Assembly: GCA_949287095.1 (NCBI GenBank)
Contig: CASEFA010000004.1
Span: forward strand, 1 to 64,000
Direction: 5' to 3'
DNA: 64,000 bases
Source of the DNA: an uncultured Bacillota bacterium
Lineage (GTDB): Bacteria; Bacillota; Clostridia; Peptostreptococcales; Anaerovoracaceae
The notes beneath the pieces were generated by a model. It was not told where the DNA came from, did no database searches, and worked only from the letters and a program-made list of their open reading frames with translations. The position numbers and the translations under genes were made by a program. Shown here piece after piece: positions 28,415 to 35,849 of this stretch (position 1 is the first letter of the stretch; each line of letters starts with the position of its first letter).

Positions 28415-28775
28415 TTGAAAAGTATTCTTTGCAGCGACAAGCAGAGGCCTCTCCAACTTGTATTGAGATGTATAATCTTTTTTCATCCTATTATTTTGTG
28501 AAAATTACCTATTTTGCAAACGAAAAAGTTGAAAAAACGGGAAATAAAAGGACGAAATAGGATTGTTTTGAAAACAATACATTACCGGGGCCATTGTAAC
28601 CAATTTTACGGAAAATAATGTTGCTGACGTGACGATATAGAGAAGAAGAGAAGAATACGGTATGACGGCCGAAGGGTTTGAACGGTGTCTGAACAGGTTG
28701 AAAATCTCGGGATGAGAGCCTGTCTGAAATCCACCGAAGGAACCCTGTGGGCATGATGCCGTTTTTTCTTAGTAA
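28415..28775. other. Long AT-rich intergenic region upstream of the sigma-54-type promoter
   Basis: About 360 bases have no convincing gene on either strand. It holds the palindrome at 28562-28578, a pair of CCTATTTT/AAATAGG inverted half-sites about 50 bases apart (near 28507-28560) and a G-rich stretch. The length and position fit the upstream control region of an enhancer-dependent promoter. Confidence 0.5.
28562..28578. promoter_or_regulatory. Palindrome ATTGTTTTGAAAACAAT, candidate activator site
   Basis: A perfect 8+1+8 palindrome lies about 200 bases upstream of the -24/-12 element, a normal distance for an enhancer-binding protein. No activator gene is in the window, so the role is inferred. 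Confidence 0.4.
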
Positions 28776-28790
28776 TGGCACGGGAATTGC
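28776..28790 (+). promoter_or_regulatory. Sigma-54-type (-24/-12) promoter
   Basis: TGGCACG at 28776-28782 and TTGC at 28787-28790 are separated by exactly four bases (GGAA), matching the sigma-54 consensus TGGCAC-G-N4-TTGC. It lies about 84 bases before the serine hydrolase start and drives that gene and the following peptide transporter if co-transcribed. Confidence 0.8.
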
Positions 28791-28873
28791 TTAAATATAT
28801 GCCTGATGGGTATTGCGGATGAAGCAGATATAAATGTTTGAATATTATGAAATAATGGAGACGAATAAGCAGT

Positions 28874-30286
28874 ATGAAATATGACGTTCAGAAATTCGAG
28901 CAGTTTTTCAAAAAGAAGTTTGAAGAAAAAGGATATTCGGGTATGGCGGTTACCATTCGCGGACCGGAAGGAAAGATTTTCGAAAAGGGCTTCGGAAAAA
29001 GAAGCATCTCCAGAGATCTGGCTCCGGACGGAGATACGGTTTTCGGTATCGCCTCGATGAGCAAATCCTTTACCACTCTGGCATGTGCCATTCTGCAGAC
29101 GGAAGGAAAGCTGAATTTTTCCGATCCTGTCTGTAAGTACTTCCCGGATTTTCACATTCCGGGAACGCCGGACGAATGCGTGACCCTGAGAAATCTGGCA
29201 ATGCACAATGCCGGCATACCTCCTATTCCGCCTCTGGAATGGTCCATCGCCATGAACAGTATTGAAAGAGACAGCGAGTGGTACAGAGAAATGCTGAAGA
29301 CTGCTCCTAATAAGATGGAAACCATTGAAGAGGTCATTGAGTATATTTCCAAAGGGGATTACAGGGTAATCGGAGCACCGGGAGAGTACATGAGTTATTC
29401 CAACGAAGGATATGCCATTCTCTCCTACGTGGTCGATAAAGCATCGGGGATGACCCTGGAAGAGTTCCTTAAGAAGAGAATCTTTGAACCGCTGGGTATG
29501 ACCAGAACGGTTCTGGATCTTGACGGTTCGGAAGCGAGAGAACTTGCCGGTGATAACATGACGAGCCTTTTCGAAAGAGATGACGACGGGAATCTCCTGG
29601 AGGATGACAACTGGTCGGTTCTGCCTCCGTTCAGAGGCTGCGCCTGCGTGAAGTCTACATCGTCTGACGTGACCAGATACTATAAGATGCTGTCAGACAA
29701 AGGGGTGTGGGAAGGAAAGCAGGTCATACCTAGCGAGGCTGTCGAAATACTTGTGGGAAGAGAATTCCCGGAAAGAGAGAGGCCGTTTTACTGTTTCGGC
29801 CTTGAGAAAAGACTCATAGACGGCAAAGTTGTATGTGAGCATACGGGAGGACTTCACGGTGTTTCCACCTGCGGAGGCTTTGTTGAAGGCGGATATTCCG
29901 CAGCGGTTCTCTGCAATGAAGGAGATCTTGACGTACAGGACTTCCAGTGGGTGTGCTACAATTTAATACTCGGTCTGCCTCTGGAGACGACTCATTACTG
30001 GGCAGAACCTTCCGGCGGGGAGTTCAGCAGTCCGGGGATGCTTTTCGGAGACTTCTGCTCTCAGGAAGGAATGCCTGCACATTTCATTGTGACCATGGAG
30101 GACGGACGTCTTAAAGCTGACCTCGGATGGGTAAAGACGGAGCTGAAGTACTGCTACGGCAGCGTGTTTGTAGCCTGCGACGAAGAGACCGGAAGAAGAG
30201 TCAGAGTAGTTGAATTCTACATAAGAGACGGCCGTGCGTGGGGCGTGCTGTGTGGAAACAGAATTTACCAGAGGGTGGAGGAGTAA
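28874..30286 (+). CDS. Serine hydrolase of the class C beta-lactamase / DD-peptidase family
   Basis: This 470-residue protein has S61-M-S-K64 (SxxK nucleophile and base), Y175-S-N177 (YxN) and a third motif of HTGG type near residue 315. This is the active site of class C beta-lactamases, DD-peptidases, D-aminopeptidases and esterases. No signal peptide is visible, so a cytoplasmic D-amino-acid peptidase or esterase is more likely than a resistance enzyme. A C-terminal beta domain of about 100 residues follows. It is the first gene behind a sigma-54-type promoter and is followed by a peptide ABC transporter, suggesting it cuts imported peptides. Confidence 0.82.
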   Translation: MKYDVQKFEQFFKKKFEEKGYSGMAVTIRGPEGKIFEKGFGKRSISRDLAPDGDTVFGIASMSKSFTTLACAILQTEGKLNFSDPVCKYFPDFHIPGTPDECVTLRNLAMHNAGIPPIPPLEWSIAMNSIERDSEWYREMLKTAPNKMETIEEVIEYISKGDYRVIGAPGEYMSYSNEGYAILSYVVDKASGMTLEEFLKKRIFEPLGMTRTVLDLDGSEARELAGDNMTSLFERDDDGNLLEDDNWSVLPPFRGCACVKSTSSDVTRYYKMLSDKGVWEGKQVIPSEAVEILVGREFPERERPFYCFGLEKRLIDGKVVCEHTGGLHGVSTCGGFVEGGYSAAVLCNEGDLDVQDFQWVCYNLILGLPLETTHYWAEPSGGEFSSPGMLFGDFCSQEGMPAHFIVTMEDGRLKADLGWVKTELKYCYGSVFVACDEETGRRVRVVEFYIRDGRAWGVLCGNRIYQRVEE

Positions 30287-30341
30287 AGGCGCTCACTCTC
30301 TGATAAATGATAGAGCATACTGAAGAAGGGAGACGATTATT

Positions 30342-31280
30342 ATCAGAAGTTATGTAATCAAGAGACTCGTACAGGGTATTCTCCTGGTAATCGTGGTATC
30401 ATTTCTGGTTTTCAGCCTGATGTACATGATGCCTGGAGACCCTATCGACATGGTGGTAGACCGTAAGGTCTCCCAGGAAAAGAAAGCTGAGATTGCTCAC
30501 GAAATGGGCTATGACCAGCCGTTCCTGACCCAGTACAAGAACTGGGTGGACGACACCATACACGGTGATTTTGGTACTTCTACCAGATATAAGACCGACG
30601 TATGGGGTCTGATGAAAGAAAGAATTCCGTACAGTCTTCAGCTTTGCGGATGGTCGCTGATTTTCGAGCTTATAATAGCTCTTCCGCTGGGACTTTTATG
30701 TGCCATTAAGAAGGATACGCTGTTCGACCGGTTCACGGTAAACTTCTCGTTGTTTTTGACGGCAGTACCGGGATTCTGGCTGGGAGCGCTGTTCATAATA
30801 ATATTCGCGGTGGAGCTGGGATGGTTCCCGATAAGCGGATACGCGGGGCCGGAGTACTTCGTGCTGCCGATAGCCACCTGCGTACTTACCGGTATGGGAG
30901 GAACCCTCCGTATTACAAAATCTGAGGTACTCGACGTAATAAATGAAAAATACGTAACGACAGCTTACGCCAAGGGACTTCCTAAGAGAACGGTAATGAT
31001 AAAGCACGTTCTCAGAAATTCCCTGATTCTGGTAACCACACTGGTGTTCATGTCCATTCCATGGCTCATTTCCGGAGCGGTTATCATCGAGAAGGTATTC
31101 GGACTTCCTGGAATGGGAAATCTCCTTCTTAACTCCATTACCGTACAGGATATGCCGGTAGTTCAGGCAGTACTGCTTCTCATAGCAATTCTGACGGTAT
31201 TATGCAACCTTGCAAGCGATCTGATTATGGGTGTTCTCGACCCTAGAATCAGACTTTCTATGGCAGGAGGTGACAACTAA
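30342..31280 (+). CDS. Oligopeptide/dipeptide ABC transporter permease (DppB/OppB type)
   Basis: This inner-membrane permease has six hydrophobic segments and the DppB-type N-terminus RSYVIKRLVQGILL followed by MPGDP. The cytoplasmic EAA-like loop is visible in the second half (YVTTAYAKGLPKRTVMIKH). In this frame no ATG, GTG or TTG occurs between the stop at 30321 and GTG 30393, yet the family-like residues begin at 30345. GGGAG at 30328-30332 lies 3-9 bases before ATT 30336, ATT 30339 and ATC 30342, so initiation at a rare AUU/AUC codon is likely. GTG 30393 would cut off most of the first helix. Confidence 0.8.
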   Translation: MRSYVIKRLVQGILLVIVVSFLVFSLMYMMPGDPIDMVVDRKVSQEKKAEIAHEMGYDQPFLTQYKNWVDDTIHGDFGTSTRYKTDVWGLMKERIPYSLQLCGWSLIFELIIALPLGLLCAIKKDTLFDRFTVNFSLFLTAVPGFWLGALFIIIFAVELGWFPISGYAGPEYFVLPIATCVLTGMGGTLRITKSEVLDVINEKYVTTAYAKGLPKRTVMIKHVLRNSLILVTTLVFMSIPWLISGAVIIEKVFGLPGMGNLLLNSITVQDMPVVQAVLLLIAILTVLCNLASDLIMGVLDPRIRLSMAGGDN

Positions 31281-31281
31281 A

Positions 31282-32175
31282 ATGAGTACAAATACGGCAG
31301 CTGCAAAAGGTCCTTCCATAGACAGCAAGACTAAGAGAAAGCTCAAGGAAACAGCTTATGCATGCTGGAAGAATAAGAACTTCATGATAGGTTTCTTCAT
31401 TCTCCTGAGCGTAATACTCGTCGCTATATTTGCGGATTTCCTCGCACCTTACGCTTACACTGAACAGAGCGTCGGAGGAAGACTCGAGGCTCCGAGCGCA
31501 GACTTCTGGTTCGGAACCGACCAGCTTGGAAGAGACGTTTTCTCCAGAACAATATACGGTTCCAGAATAGCTCTCTGGGTTGCATTCCTGGGAGGTATCA
31601 TCCAGCTGGCAATAGGTATCGTAGTAGGACTGGCTTCCGGTTATTTCGGAAAGTGGACAGACAGAGTTCTGTCGTTCCTTACTGACCTGACATGGATTAT
31701 ACCGGGAACAATCCTTGCTCTTGCAGTGGTTACCATCATCGGTAAAGGTCTGACAAATACTGTAATCGCTATTTCCTTTGTAGCATGGGCAGGATATGCG
31801 CGTCCGGTAAGAGCAAAGACCATGTCCCTGAAGCACATGGCATTCCTTGAAACAGGTAAGGCATTTGGAGAATCCAACTTCTCTCTCATGGCAAGATACA
31901 TACTGCCGAACGTAATTCCGTCACTGGTAGTAATGGTATCCCTGAATCTTCCGGGAACCATAATGTCCACCACGACACTGTCCTTCCTGGGACTCGGTTC
32001 TCAGCCGCCTTCACCTGACTGGGGACTTGCAATATCCGACGGACTTTCCAACATAACCAGAGCTCCTTGGCTCAGCCTTTTCCCGGGCATTGCACTTGTA
32101 TATACTACATTCGGATTTAACCTCATAGGCGAAGGTCTCAGAGATCTCCTTGACCCGCATATGAAGTCACAGTAG
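31282..32175 (+). CDS. Oligopeptide/dipeptide ABC transporter permease (DppC/OppC type)
   Basis: This 297-residue permease starts with a hydrophilic tail, then the DppC N-terminal helix and the segment HxFGTDQLGRDVFSR-like FWFGTDQLGRDVFSRTIYG, which identifies the DppC/OppC family. Five or more helices and an EAA-like loop (around MAFLETGKAFGESN) follow. ATG 31282 lies one base after the upstream permease stop (its last base is 31280), behind AGGAGGTGA. It forms the heterodimeric channel with the permease at 30342. Confidence 0.92.
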   Translation: MSTNTAAAKGPSIDSKTKRKLKETAYACWKNKNFMIGFFILLSVILVAIFADFLAPYAYTEQSVGGRLEAPSADFWFGTDQLGRDVFSRTIYGSRIALWVAFLGGIIQLAIGIVVGLASGYFGKWTDRVLSFLTDLTWIIPGTILALAVVTIIGKGLTNTVIAISFVAWAGYARPVRAKTMSLKHMAFLETGKAFGESNFSLMARYILPNVIPSLVVMVSLNLPGTIMSTTTLSFLGLGSQPPSPDWGLAISDGLSNITRAPWLSLFPGIALVYTTFGFNLIGEGLRDLLDPHMKSQ

Positions 32176-32189
32176 AAAGGAGTGCGAAT

Positions 32190-33164
32190 ATGAGCGAAGA
32201 ACTGCTTAGATTAGAAAATCTGTCAATAGATTATAAAGTAAAAGAGGGCTACCTTTCTGCTGTAAAGGATGTAAATTTCTCCATCAATAAAGGCGAGATT
32301 TTCGCCGTGGTAGGAGAATCCGGATGCGGAAAGTCCACAGTGGCTCACAGCATAATGAATCTTCTTCCGGGAGGAAACGAGACAATTACCGGAAAGGTCA
32401 TATTCAAGGGCAGAGATCTGAGAGAAGTGACCGAAAAGGAGATGGAGAAGATCAGAGGTAAGGAAATCGGAATGATTTTCCAGAACCCGCTGGATTCTCT
32501 GAACCCTGTATACACCGTAGGAAGTCAGGTGGCGGAGGCCATAGAACTTGACAAGGTGGATAAGCAGGAAGCATGGAACAGAGTAATAGAACTGTTTAAG
32601 GACGTAAAGATGCCGGATGCAGAGGAAAGAGCAAAGAGCTTCCCACACGAGCTTTCCGGAGGAATGCGTCAGCGTGTAATGATAGCAATGATGATTTCGA
32701 GAAATCCGGAGCTGCTGATTGCCGACGAGCCTACCACGGCTCTTGACGTAACCATCGAGGCTCAGATTCTGGCAATCATCAAGGACCTGAAGGAACAGTT
32801 CAATACCGCGGTAATGCTTATTACACATAACTTCGGTCTCGTAGCCGAAGTTGCGGATAAAATCGGTGTAATGTACGCAGGAGAGATGGTGGAAACAGGC
32901 GACGTATTTGAGATTTTCAAAAACCCTGTTCACCCATACACCAGACTCCTCATGGCCGCCCTTCCAAGAAAGACGAAGGATGAAGGAAGACTTCAGACTA
33001 TTGAAGGCAACGTACCGAGAATCACCGAAAAGAAGCCGGGCTGCCGCTTTGCAAACAGATGTCCTTACGCAACGGAGAAATGTAAGACAGAAGATCCTCC
33101 TATGACAATGGTGGGAGAAGATCACATGGTAAGATGTCACGAAATAGGAAAGGAGGAAAAGTAA
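32190..33164 (+). CDS. Peptide ABC transporter ATP-binding protein (DppD/OppD type)
   Basis: This 324-residue ATPase has Walker A GESGCGKST, the Q-loop QNPLDSLNP, the ABC signature LSGGMRQR and Walker B ADEPTTALD. The C-terminal oligopeptide extension carries Cys residues in CRFANRCPYAT and further CK and MVRCH segments, which in this subfamily bind an Fe-S cluster. It follows the permease genes by 14 bases with AAAGGAG. It powers uptake with its partner at 33166. Confidence 0.93.
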   Translation: MSEELLRLENLSIDYKVKEGYLSAVKDVNFSINKGEIFAVVGESGCGKSTVAHSIMNLLPGGNETITGKVIFKGRDLREVTEKEMEKIRGKEIGMIFQNPLDSLNPVYTVGSQVAEAIELDKVDKQEAWNRVIELFKDVKMPDAEERAKSFPHELSGGMRQRVMIAMMISRNPELLIADEPTTALDVTIEAQILAIIKDLKEQFNTAVMLITHNFGLVAEVADKIGVMYAGEMVETGDVFEIFKNPVHPYTRLLMAALPRKTKDEGRLQTIEGNVPRITEKKPGCRFANRCPYATEKCKTEDPPMTMVGEDHMVRCHEIGKEEK

Positions 33165-33165
33165 T

Positions 33166-34143
33166 ATGGAAGAAAGAGCTATGATAGAACTTGACGGACT
33201 GAAGAAGTACTTTTCCATTTCCAAGGGTCTCGTAAAGAAGACGAAGAGCTATGTAAAGGCAGTTGATGACATCACCATGACCATAAACGAAGGTGAAATC
33301 GTCGGACTGGTAGGAGAATCAGGAAGCGGTAAGACCACTCTTGCACGTACCCTTCTCTCCCTGACGAAGATGACCGGAGGAGATGTCTACATCGATGGCG
33401 TAAACCTTGCGAAAGCCACCAGAGCCGATATGAAGAAGCTTCATAGCGACATAGCGGTAGTATTCCAGGATCCTGCTTCCAATCTGAACCCGAGACAGAC
33501 AGTGGAAAGTTCCATTATGAGACCTATGATAGTTCACGGTGCGTCAAAGGCAGAGGCGAGACAGAAAGCAAAGGAAGTACTCGACCTGGTAAAGATGGAC
33601 GAAAGGTATCTGGACAGCTATCCTCATCAGCTTTCCGGAGGACAGCTCCAGAGAATAGCCATAGCAAGAGCCCTTGCGCTGAATCCTAAGATTATGATTC
33701 TGGACGAGCCTACGTCGGCGCTGGATATTTCCGTACAGGCGCAGATTCTCAATCTGCTTCTCGACCTGCAGGAAACACTCCACCTGACTTATCTGGTAAT
33801 AACTCACGACCTTAACGTTATAAAGTATCTCAGCGATAAGATTGCGGTAATGTACCTTGGCAAGCTGGTTGAGTTCGGACCGACGGCTGAAGTTTCAAAT
33901 AACCCTAAGCACCCTTATACGTGGGGACTTATGAGTTCCGCACCTATTCTGGACCCTACTCTCAGAGACAGAGAAAAGCAGCTTCTGTCAGGAGATCCGG
34001 GAAGCCTGATAAAGATAGGCGCCGGCTGCAGGTTCTGTGACAGATGTCAGTATGCTACCGAGGAATGTAAGAATTCCCAGCCGGAAACGGAGGAGGTATC
34101 CCCGGGTCATCAGGTTGCATGTTACCACCCATTACACATATAG
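33166..34143 (+). CDS. Peptide ABC transporter ATP-binding protein (DppF/OppF type)
   Basis: This 325-residue ATPase has Walker A GESGSGKTT, Q-loop QDPASNLNP, signature LSGGQLQRI and Walker B LDEPTSALD. The extra C-terminal Cys-rich tail CRFCDRCQYATEECK matches the DppF/OppF subfamily. The ATG at 33166 follows AGGAGG and lies one base after the partner gene. The run of permease, permease, ATPase, ATPase, binding protein is a complete Dpp/Opp-type importer. Confidence 0.93.
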   Translation: MEERAMIELDGLKKYFSISKGLVKKTKSYVKAVDDITMTINEGEIVGLVGESGSGKTTLARTLLSLTKMTGGDVYIDGVNLAKATRADMKKLHSDIAVVFQDPASNLNPRQTVESSIMRPMIVHGASKAEARQKAKEVLDLVKMDERYLDSYPHQLSGGQLQRIAIARALALNPKIMILDEPTSALDISVQAQILNLLLDLQETLHLTYLVITHDLNVIKYLSDKIAVMYLGKLVEFGPTAEVSNNPKHPYTWGLMSSAPILDPTLRDREKQLLSGDPGSLIKIGAGCRFCDRCQYATEECKNSQPETEEVSPGHQVACYHPLHI

Positions 34144-34283: not shown

Positions 34284-35849
34284 ATGAAAAAGAAATTATT
34301 GACCCTCGGCCTCATTGCAGCCATGACATTCTCAATGGCAGCATGCGGAGGCGGCGGCGATGAGGCGGCAGATCCTGCTGAGAAGACAGAATTTGTCATG
34401 ACCGACAGCGAATGGTACGGAATCGATACCATGCAGCTTGACTCCACAAGCACCGGTACTGCTCTGATCGCTGAGCCTATGTTCAGCTGGGACGAGGAGA
34501 ACGGAACTCTTACTGACAACATCTGCACAGACTGGACAGTAAGCGAAGACGGTCTTACCGTTACTTTCAACGTTCCTGAGGGAATGACATTCTCCACAGG
34601 AGAAACTCTCGATGCAGGCGACGTAGTTGCATCCATTCAGCACGGACTCGATTCGTCTCCATATGCTGACGGATACTCCAACATCGAAAGCATGGACTAT
34701 GAAGGAAACACTGTAACCCTTCATCTGAGCCACTTCACTTCCGACATGATGTACTATTTCAGCTCCGGATTCCTTACCATCATCGACAGCGGTGAGCTGG
34801 AGTCCATGTCCAACGAAGAACTCATGTGGGGAGCACATCCTTACGGACCTTACTACATCGCAAACCCTGAAGACTATGTATCCGGTTCAGAACTCACTCT
34901 TACCAGATTCGACGACTTCAAGTGCGAGAACCCTGAGGTAGAGAACCACGGACCTATGGCATTCGAAACCATCAGACTCAGATTCAACGTAGAAGAGTTC
35001 ACTGAGATCGAAGAGCTGAAGAACGGTACCATCGATATGCTGGGAACTGTAACTGCAGACGGCAAGATGGAGCTTGAAGGTGCAGAGGGAATAACTCTCG
35101 AAGAGGCTACTTACCCAAGCATCTACTACTGCGAACTCAACACTGACTCCCCTGTATTCTCCGACATCAATGTAAGAAAGGCATTCGCTCTTGCACTTGA
35201 CAGAGAAGGATGGGTTGACATCGTAGACGGAACCATTACTCCTGCATACTCCATGATCTTTGACACTATGCAGAACTTCAACCAGGACGCAAAGGACTAC
35301 TTTGAAGAAAATCTCGCAAACGACGTTGATGAAGCAAACAAGCTTCTCGACGAGGCCGGATGGGAGATGAACGATGACGGATTCCGTTACAAGGACGGAG
35401 AAAAGCTTGCATTCACATGGTATGCATGGACTGACGACACTGCAATCGCTGAAAGAATGGCTGAACAGCTTTCAGCAGTTGGATTCGAAATGAGCATCGA
35501 AGCTATCGACTGGAACTACGTATATGAGAACATCAACAGCGATGACTATGACGCAGGTATCGAATATCTGTCATGGGCAGAGCCTATCCTCATCTTCAAC
35601 AGCTGCTACTATGACCAGAACGCACCTGGAAACAACGATGAGTATCGTGAAATGGTAGCTAAGACGGCTGCAACTATCGACGGTGAGGAAAGAACTGAGA
35701 TGGTTGGCGAAGTTCAGATGATGCTGTTCGAAAACGTTAACATGATTCCGCTGTTCTCCGACCAGAGCTTTATCGCTTACAACTCCGATCTTAAGGGTGT
35801 AAACGTACAGCCTGACGGAACTATGGCACTGAATGATTTATCATACTAA
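34284..35849 (+). CDS. Peptide ABC transporter substrate-binding lipoprotein
   Basis: This 521-residue protein has a lipoprotein signal with the lipobox MAAC (Cys20-type) and a Gly-rich linker, and then the SBP family 5 pattern (peptide/nickel binding). The SEWYGIDT segment recurs in the paralog at 63749. It should be anchored to the outer face of the membrane and deliver peptides to the permeases at 30342-32175. ATG 34284 follows AGGAGG; an in-frame TTG at 34269 is part of that site. It is separated from the ATPase gene by a hairpin and a Rex-like palindrome, so it may be regulated separately. Confidence 0.92.
   Translation: MKKKLLTLGLIAAMTFSMAACGGGGDEAADPAEKTEFVMTDSEWYGIDTMQLDSTSTGTALIAEPMFSWDEENGTLTDNICTDWTVSEDGLTVTFNVPEGMTFSTGETLDAGDVVASIQHGLDSSPYADGYSNIESMDYEGNTVTLHLSHFTSDMMYYFSSGFLTIIDSGELESMSNEELMWGAHPYGPYYIANPEDYVSGSELTLTRFDDFKCENPEVENHGPMAFETIRLRFNVEEFTEIEELKNGTIDMLGTVTADGKMELEGAEGITLEEATYPSIYYCELNTDSPVFSDINVRKAFALALDREGWVDIVDGTITPAYSMIFDTMQNFNQDAKDYFEENLANDVDEANKLLDEAGWEMNDDGFRYKDGEKLAFTWYAWTDDTAIAERMAEQLSAVGFEMSIEAIDWNYVYENINSDDYDAGIEYLSWAEPILIFNSCYYDQNAPGNNDEYREMVAKTAATIDGEERTEMVGEVQMMLFENVNMIPLFSDQSFIAYNSDLKGVNVQPDGTMALNDLSY

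Follow-up and report, generated by a model that had tools for sequence, protein, structure and literature searches.

A serine hydrolase gene and a peptide importer

The window, i.e., the whole 64-kb stretch of DNA that was analysed, holds a gene for a family S12 serine hydrolase without visible signal peptide, followed by genes for OppB, OppC, OppD, OppF, and OppA (Table 1). The original prediction likewise named such a hydrolase and a full importer. The Opp/Dpp importer is complete, with two permeases, two oligo_HPY ATPases, and a binding protein of the SBP_bac_5 family, whose matches to the nickel, opine, and peptide classes are all below the cut-off. Concerning the start of OppB, there is no in-frame ATG, GTG, or TTG before 30393 (window 30330-30395) and the match to the N-terminal domain starts upstream of it; an ATT near 30336 is a possible start.

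Table 1. Features of the window (plain positions) and of the source genome (positions preceded by the contig).
Feature	Position	Strand	Basis or remark
Candidate activator site 1, direct repeat AATCTTTTTTCATCCTATTA	28474..28493	+	19.6 bits, second best in the window; inverted relative to site 2
Candidate activator site 2, direct repeat AATCCTATTTCGTCCTTTTA	28545..28564	-	22.2 bits, best in the window; 10-bp period
Palindrome ATTGTTTTGAAAACAAT	28562..28578	.	Perfect, 17 bp, 8-bp arms; shares 3 bases with site 2; probably not an activator site
Sigma-54 -24/-12 promoter TGGCACGGGAATTGCT	28776..28791	+	TGGCAY-N5-TTGCW, 0 mismatches; predicted start near 28802
Family S12 serine hydrolase (Pab87/D-peptidase-like)	28874..30286	+	PF00144 7.7e-42; no visible signal peptide
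OppB/DppB permease	30336..31280	+	PF00528 + PF19300; start uncertain
OppC/DppC permease	31288..32175	+	PF00528 + PF12911; start inferred
OppD ATPase	32190..33164	+	PF00005 + PF08352
OppF ATPase	33166..34143	+	PF00005 + PF08352
OppA-type substrate-binding protein	34287..35849	+	PF00496 2.7e-55; lipoprotein-like N-terminus
M55/S58 operon	repeat C1:98332 (22.1 bits); promoter C1:98247		M55 D-aminopeptidase + S58 peptidase
S66 operon	repeat C1:113886 (18.7 bits); promoter C1:113764		Two Gate-domain membrane proteins + S66 LD-carboxypeptidase
Permease/amidohydrolase operon	repeat C5:106924 (21.3 bits); promoter C5:106804		Amino-acid permease + Amidohydro_3 (D-aminoacylase-like)
Candidate activator EBP	C1:98438-100544		PF00158 1.8e-68; GSFTGA

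The hydrolase has the S12 motifs SMSK (SxxK), YSN (YxN), and HTGG (HxG), conserved in the alignment. Its nearest solved relative by sequence is Pab87 (2qmi, E 2.9e-27), which is also the nearest solved fold to the structure model (pLDDT 90; Z 39.2, rmsd 2.7 over 351 residues), and this match supports a predicted beta-lactamase/DD-peptidase fold. Pab87 is a CubicO peptidase from Pyrococcus abyssi with a preference for D-Ala-pNA; it also trims a muropeptide, and its gene lies near those of a D-aminoacylase and a dipeptide ABC transporter (PMC2651629). The two proteins share an S12 domain with a C-terminal beta domain. Unlike Pab87, the hydrolase does not show the CubicO signatures YAEAF/L, FFYLN, and C-terminal ERY; it has YSNE instead (YSNEGYA in the alignment) and a C-terminal RIYQR. 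Judged by these signature motifs, it is not a CubicO member. A further difference from the window system is that Pab87 is archaeal, and archaea are not known to have sigma-54.

Promoter and upstream elements

The -24/-12 site upstream of the hydrolase gene has GG at -24, GC at -12, and the exact spacing. It is the only perfect match to TGGCAY-N5-TTGCW in the window and one of 20 in the source genome (G000, 1.95 Mb, whose contigs are written C1, C5, etc.). Each of the remaining 19 is no more than about 8 kb away from a gene encoding a sigma-54 activator (enhancer-binding protein, EBP). Hence, the motif is specific in G000, and the window promoter is the sole orphan among the perfect sites. The original prediction, which proposed this site and suggested looking for rpoN and an EBP gene, holds on this point: G000 encodes rpoN (C11:35555, PF00309 1.5e-18) and 18 EBPs with strong PF00158 matches, the site is identical at 16 of 16 bases in the sister genome G043, and it recurs upstream of orthologues, some of which have an EBP gene near the operon. 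Sigma-54 control of the operon is thus strongly supported. One might suspect a chance match and transcription from a sigma-70 promoter, as we estimate that around four perfect matches per genome would be expected at uniform base composition, against the 20 seen. This is extremely improbable given the exact conservation in G043, the recurrence of the site together with a repeat in relatives, and a search of the forward strand between 28380 and 28900 that found no sigma-70-like site. Sigma-54 almost certainly uses the window promoter.

To define the activator sites, we used a motif, AATCCTATTTAATCCTATTT, that is a 10-bp direct repeat obtained ab initio from 17 promoters of other genera, with the window's genus excluded. 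It scored 388 bits, against 237-250 for shuffled sets. Among all matches on both strands of the window, the two best fall in the window promoter, and the third best reaches 10.1 bits. The weight-matrix scan covered the window and about 413 kb, and the whole genome was covered by IUPAC patterns; site 2 fits these exactly and is one of 3-4 such matches in G000. A weaker additional half-site lies beside it (28535-28544). In G043, site 1 keeps 20 of 20 bases and site 2 has three changes, all allowed by the motif. Inspection of the relatives' promoters reveals GGATT-like half-sites recurring at 10 bp. Pairs of RGRT at spacing 10 were seen eight times in the relatives, when 0.64 were expected, and none of 300 shuffles reached eight; spacings of 11, 20, and 21 are likewise elevated, and nearly all pairs have one orientation. 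The repeat score is bimodal in 57 orthologue promoters: 11 score at least 16.3 (nine of these belonged to the training set of the motif, the window and L079 being outside it) and the others at most 8.4. A -24/-12 site is present in all 11 high scorers; among the low scorers, only L115 has one near the start. On these patterns of sequence and conservation, the window operon is very probably activated through the direct repeats.

The original prediction had placed the activator on a 17-bp palindrome, which is present and perfect. The expectation for perfect palindromes with arms of at least 8 bp is 0.017 in the 459-bp intergenic region. Since around 1.8 are expected per 64 kb and three were observed, the palindrome is only mildly unusual. 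It might still be the activator site, or the operator of a second regulator such as a CodY-like repressor of peptide uptake: its arms are perfect, it is rare by the intergenic expectation, and the orthologous loci L098 and L130 likewise have palindromes of the TTTTGAAAA type upstream of -24. We find this quite unlikely. In G043, one of the eight pairs is lost and the centre is changed, while the repeats keep to the motif; no counterpart in position or sequence was found in the promoters of the other relatives, nor was the palindrome found at the other repeat-marked operons of G000. The original prediction had suggested a search for it upstream of other -24/-12 sites; G000 has a single exact copy. 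The conserved element is instead the direct repeat, which the original prediction did not mention and whose end falls within the palindrome's left arm, together with its inverted copy at site 1. The palindrome was therefore dropped as an upstream activating sequence after the comparison with relatives. The CodY box is TTTTC-W-GAAAA; a reading of the palindrome as such a box was rejected, its spacing being unlike (TTTT-G-AAAA).

The short palindromes of L098 and L130, centred on TTTTGAAAA/TTTTCAAAA at -79 and -56 relative to -24, respectively, may be a second element or may arise by chance in A+T-rich DNA.

Repeat-marked operons and a candidate activator

A repeat and a sigma-54 site some 70-280 bp apart occur at four places in G000, one of which is the window operon. 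The promoter at C1:98247 reads into genes for an M55 D-aminopeptidase, an S58 peptidase, an Asp/Glu-type racemase, a D-aminoacyl-tRNA deacylase, and a polysaccharide deacetylase. This operon is divergent from the genes of an EBP (contig-1 EBP), an M20 carboxypeptidase, and an alanine racemase. The other two places are the S66 operon and the permease/amidohydrolase operon, the promoter of the latter having one mismatch (TGGCGT). The family assignments should be read with care, as most NCBIfam matches are below the equivalog cut-offs and several of the peptidase families also act on other substrates.

Two further repeat matches were set aside. The one at C21:6963-6982 (21.6 bits) lies between two forward genes and has no -24/-12 site within two mismatches nearby, and the one at C19:2633 is inside a gene.

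The contig-1 EBP is composed of around 200 N-terminal residues, a PAS domain, an AAA+ sigma-54 domain with a GAFTGA-type loop (GSFTGA), and a non-Fis, winged-helix-type DNA-binding C-terminus. At E 0.01, no Fis HTH (HTH_8/HTH_50) was found in this protein or in 10 related EBPs; several of the related proteins hit winged-helix models. The same test finds Fis-type domains in other EBPs of G000. For the N-terminal domain, no sequence relative was found in the PDB. The model of the protein has a modest pLDDT of 70, and its listed matches to solved structures cover only the PAS part. Four other EBPs of G000 have the same C-terminal family.

Across G000, 5 of the 18 EBPs have a non-Fis winged-helix-type C-terminus, and nearly every perfect -24/-12 site adjoins an EBP.

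Of all the EBPs of G000, only the contig-1 EBP has the repeat beside its gene; it is also the closest to the EBPs adjacent to the hydrolase in relatives (47-53%). Its gene is on another contig than the window operon and is unlinked to it. With good confidence, we expect from these comparisons that it would activate the window operon. A different EBP could do so, for instance one of those near the hydrolase paralogues of contigs 12 and 8, which adjoin 59-61% identical hydrolases and have the same C-terminal DNA-binding family. This alternative is improbable, since the promoters of these EBPs are without a strong direct repeat and the hydrolase-adjacent EBPs of relatives are less close to them (41-48%) than to the contig-1 EBP.

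Relatives and the predicted D-peptide regulon

To assess conservation, we compared 55 loci encoding relatives of the hydrolase. L079, L093, L095-L099, L111, L115, and L130 have an upstream -24/-12 site with no more than one mismatch, and the hydrolase gene has a -24/-12 site in G166 and G193 too. The site recurs in about ten related genomes. An EBP gene lies within around 3 kb of the hydrolase orthologue in L093, L095, L098, L099, L111, L130, and G193. Because relatives have both the site and a nearby EBP, sigma-54 control of the hydrolase gene can be said to recur. In G043, where the hydrolase is 98% identical, the EBP, the repeats, and both promoters are kept. In G071, a single repeat and a single -24/-12 site precede one series of genes for a permease, S58, M55, and S66 peptidases, the hydrolase, and OppBCDFA. 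Neighbours of the hydrolase gene in other relatives include S66, S11, and racemase genes. In G158, which has no close orthologue of the hydrolase, the EBP is retained, as are the repeats at the S58 and S66 operons.

The control element is not found everywhere. In the sister species G116, the M55-S58-racemase and M20-Alr genes are still present, and the hydrolase is 92% identical. No EBP was found between its M55 and M20 genes, and neither repeat nor -24/-12 site at the two orthologous promoters, in a 94%-complete metagenome-assembled genome with a contig edge inside the hydrolase gene. It thus seems that G116 lost the activator along with the sites. The hydrolase genes of the genus g12 showed no sigma-54 site, though rpoN is present there. 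Many orthologues in other families lack both repeat and -24/-12 site; hence, the hydrolase-importer unit can do without sigma-54 in places. In the hydrolase tree, the repeat-bearing copies fall inside one supported clade that also holds repeat-less copies; hence, this control was gained or lost more than once.

The hydrolase paralogues of G000 (C12:31091-32518, L061; C8:110701-112131, L063) are each near an EBP of their own and a perfect -24/-12 site. Their hydrolase-side intergenic regions have a conserved TGTCAY/TGACAC-N5-TTGCA without the usual second G, also seen in L094, L129, and L132. In the tree they group with the hydrolases of L166 (G095) and L168 (G011), from another genus, which also lie in the ileS-rlmN neighbourhood, on the opposite strand and without a sigma-54 site.

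We propose the following mechanism. Sigma-54 RNA polymerase would transcribe hydrolase-oppBCDFA from the site at 28776, activated in trans by the contig-1 EBP, which would bind the direct repeats AAATAGGATTAAATAGGATT at 28545-28564 and 28474-28493 and loop to the promoter. The same EBP would control at least three other operons handling D-amino-acid peptides. The window operon would contribute the importer and a cytoplasmic S12 peptidase, and the other operons the D-aminopeptidase (M55), S58 peptidase, LD-carboxypeptidase (S66), racemase, D-aminoacyl-tRNA deacylase, permease, and D-aminoacylase-like hydrolase. This combined set of enzymes and importer points to the scavenging and catabolism of D-amino-acid peptides, which would most likely be peptidoglycan stem peptides of lysed gut bacteria. 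The computed support lies in the promoter, the repeats, the shared gene set, and the association with EBPs; DNA binding, the inducer, and the enzyme substrates are what we infer.

Cleavage of D-residue peptides by the hydrolase is suggested by its relatives and by the co-regulated genes, and the link that the original prediction drew between peptide import and a D-peptidase inside the cell gains support from the other operons with the same control element. One might have expected a general oligopeptide or nutrient importer next to an unrelated hydrolase (an esterase or a beta-lactamase), with sigma-54 responding to starvation and an accidental link to D-peptides. PF00144 spans many activities, and the class of the binding protein, as seen above, would allow it. 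This is unlikely, as the other repeat-marked operons encode D-amino-acid and wall-peptide families, and G071 has them in one run with hydrolase and importer. A D-peptide function is likely in our view, and it is fairly likely that the contig-1 EBP governs a sigma-54 regulon for D-peptides, probably stem peptides of peptidoglycan, in which the window operon serves for import and cleavage.

The dpp operon of Bacillus subtilis, which encodes the D-aminopeptidase DppA and the DppBCDE importer, similarly pairs a cytoplasmic D-stereospecific peptidase with a peptide ABC importer. Unlike in the window operon, the enzyme of the dpp operon is of family M55 rather than S12, and control is by CodY/AbrB rather than sigma-54. 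The known EBP regulons of Clostridiales have dedicated EBPs, sites mostly 100-250 bp upstream, and amino-acid catabolic operons as targets, and some of these EBPs are unlinked to their targets (Nie et al. 2019, PMC6615313). The regulon proposed here resembles them in its sigma-54 promoters and in a dedicated, unlinked EBP with an upstream site, but the 39 EBP groups that have been reconstructed for Clostridiales do not include it, and none of them targets a D-peptidase, LD-carboxypeptidase, or Opp operon (PMC6615313). Moreover, a Fis HTH is present in most of those EBPs, and inverted TGT/ACA repeats are the binding sites of many (PMC6615313), whereas here we find a non-Fis end and a 10-bp direct repeat. 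In the open-access literature, whose coverage is incomplete, we found no paper on sigma-54 with D-aminopeptidase, muropeptides, or DppA/DmpA, or on winged-helix EBPs with direct repeats, and none reporting this regulon.

These results extend what was a single proposed promoter to a regulon that can be tested, comprising four predicted operons, one activator, and an enhancer of defined sequence. We are evenly divided on a broader reading, in which sigma-54 activators of a class not described before, having a novel sensor at the N-terminus, PAS and AAA+ domains, a winged-helix-type end other than Fis, and enhancers made of 10-bp direct repeats, would sense D-amino acids or wall peptides and control a dispersed regulon letting gut Clostridia live on D-amino-acid peptides from the walls of other bacteria. 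If the predicted regulon is real, it would make a group of EBPs whose DNA-binding end is not of the Fis type recognisable by sequence, add the scavenging of D-peptides or peptidoglycan fragments to the functions known for sigma-54 in Clostridia, and suggest a route by which gut bacteria may recover D-amino acids.
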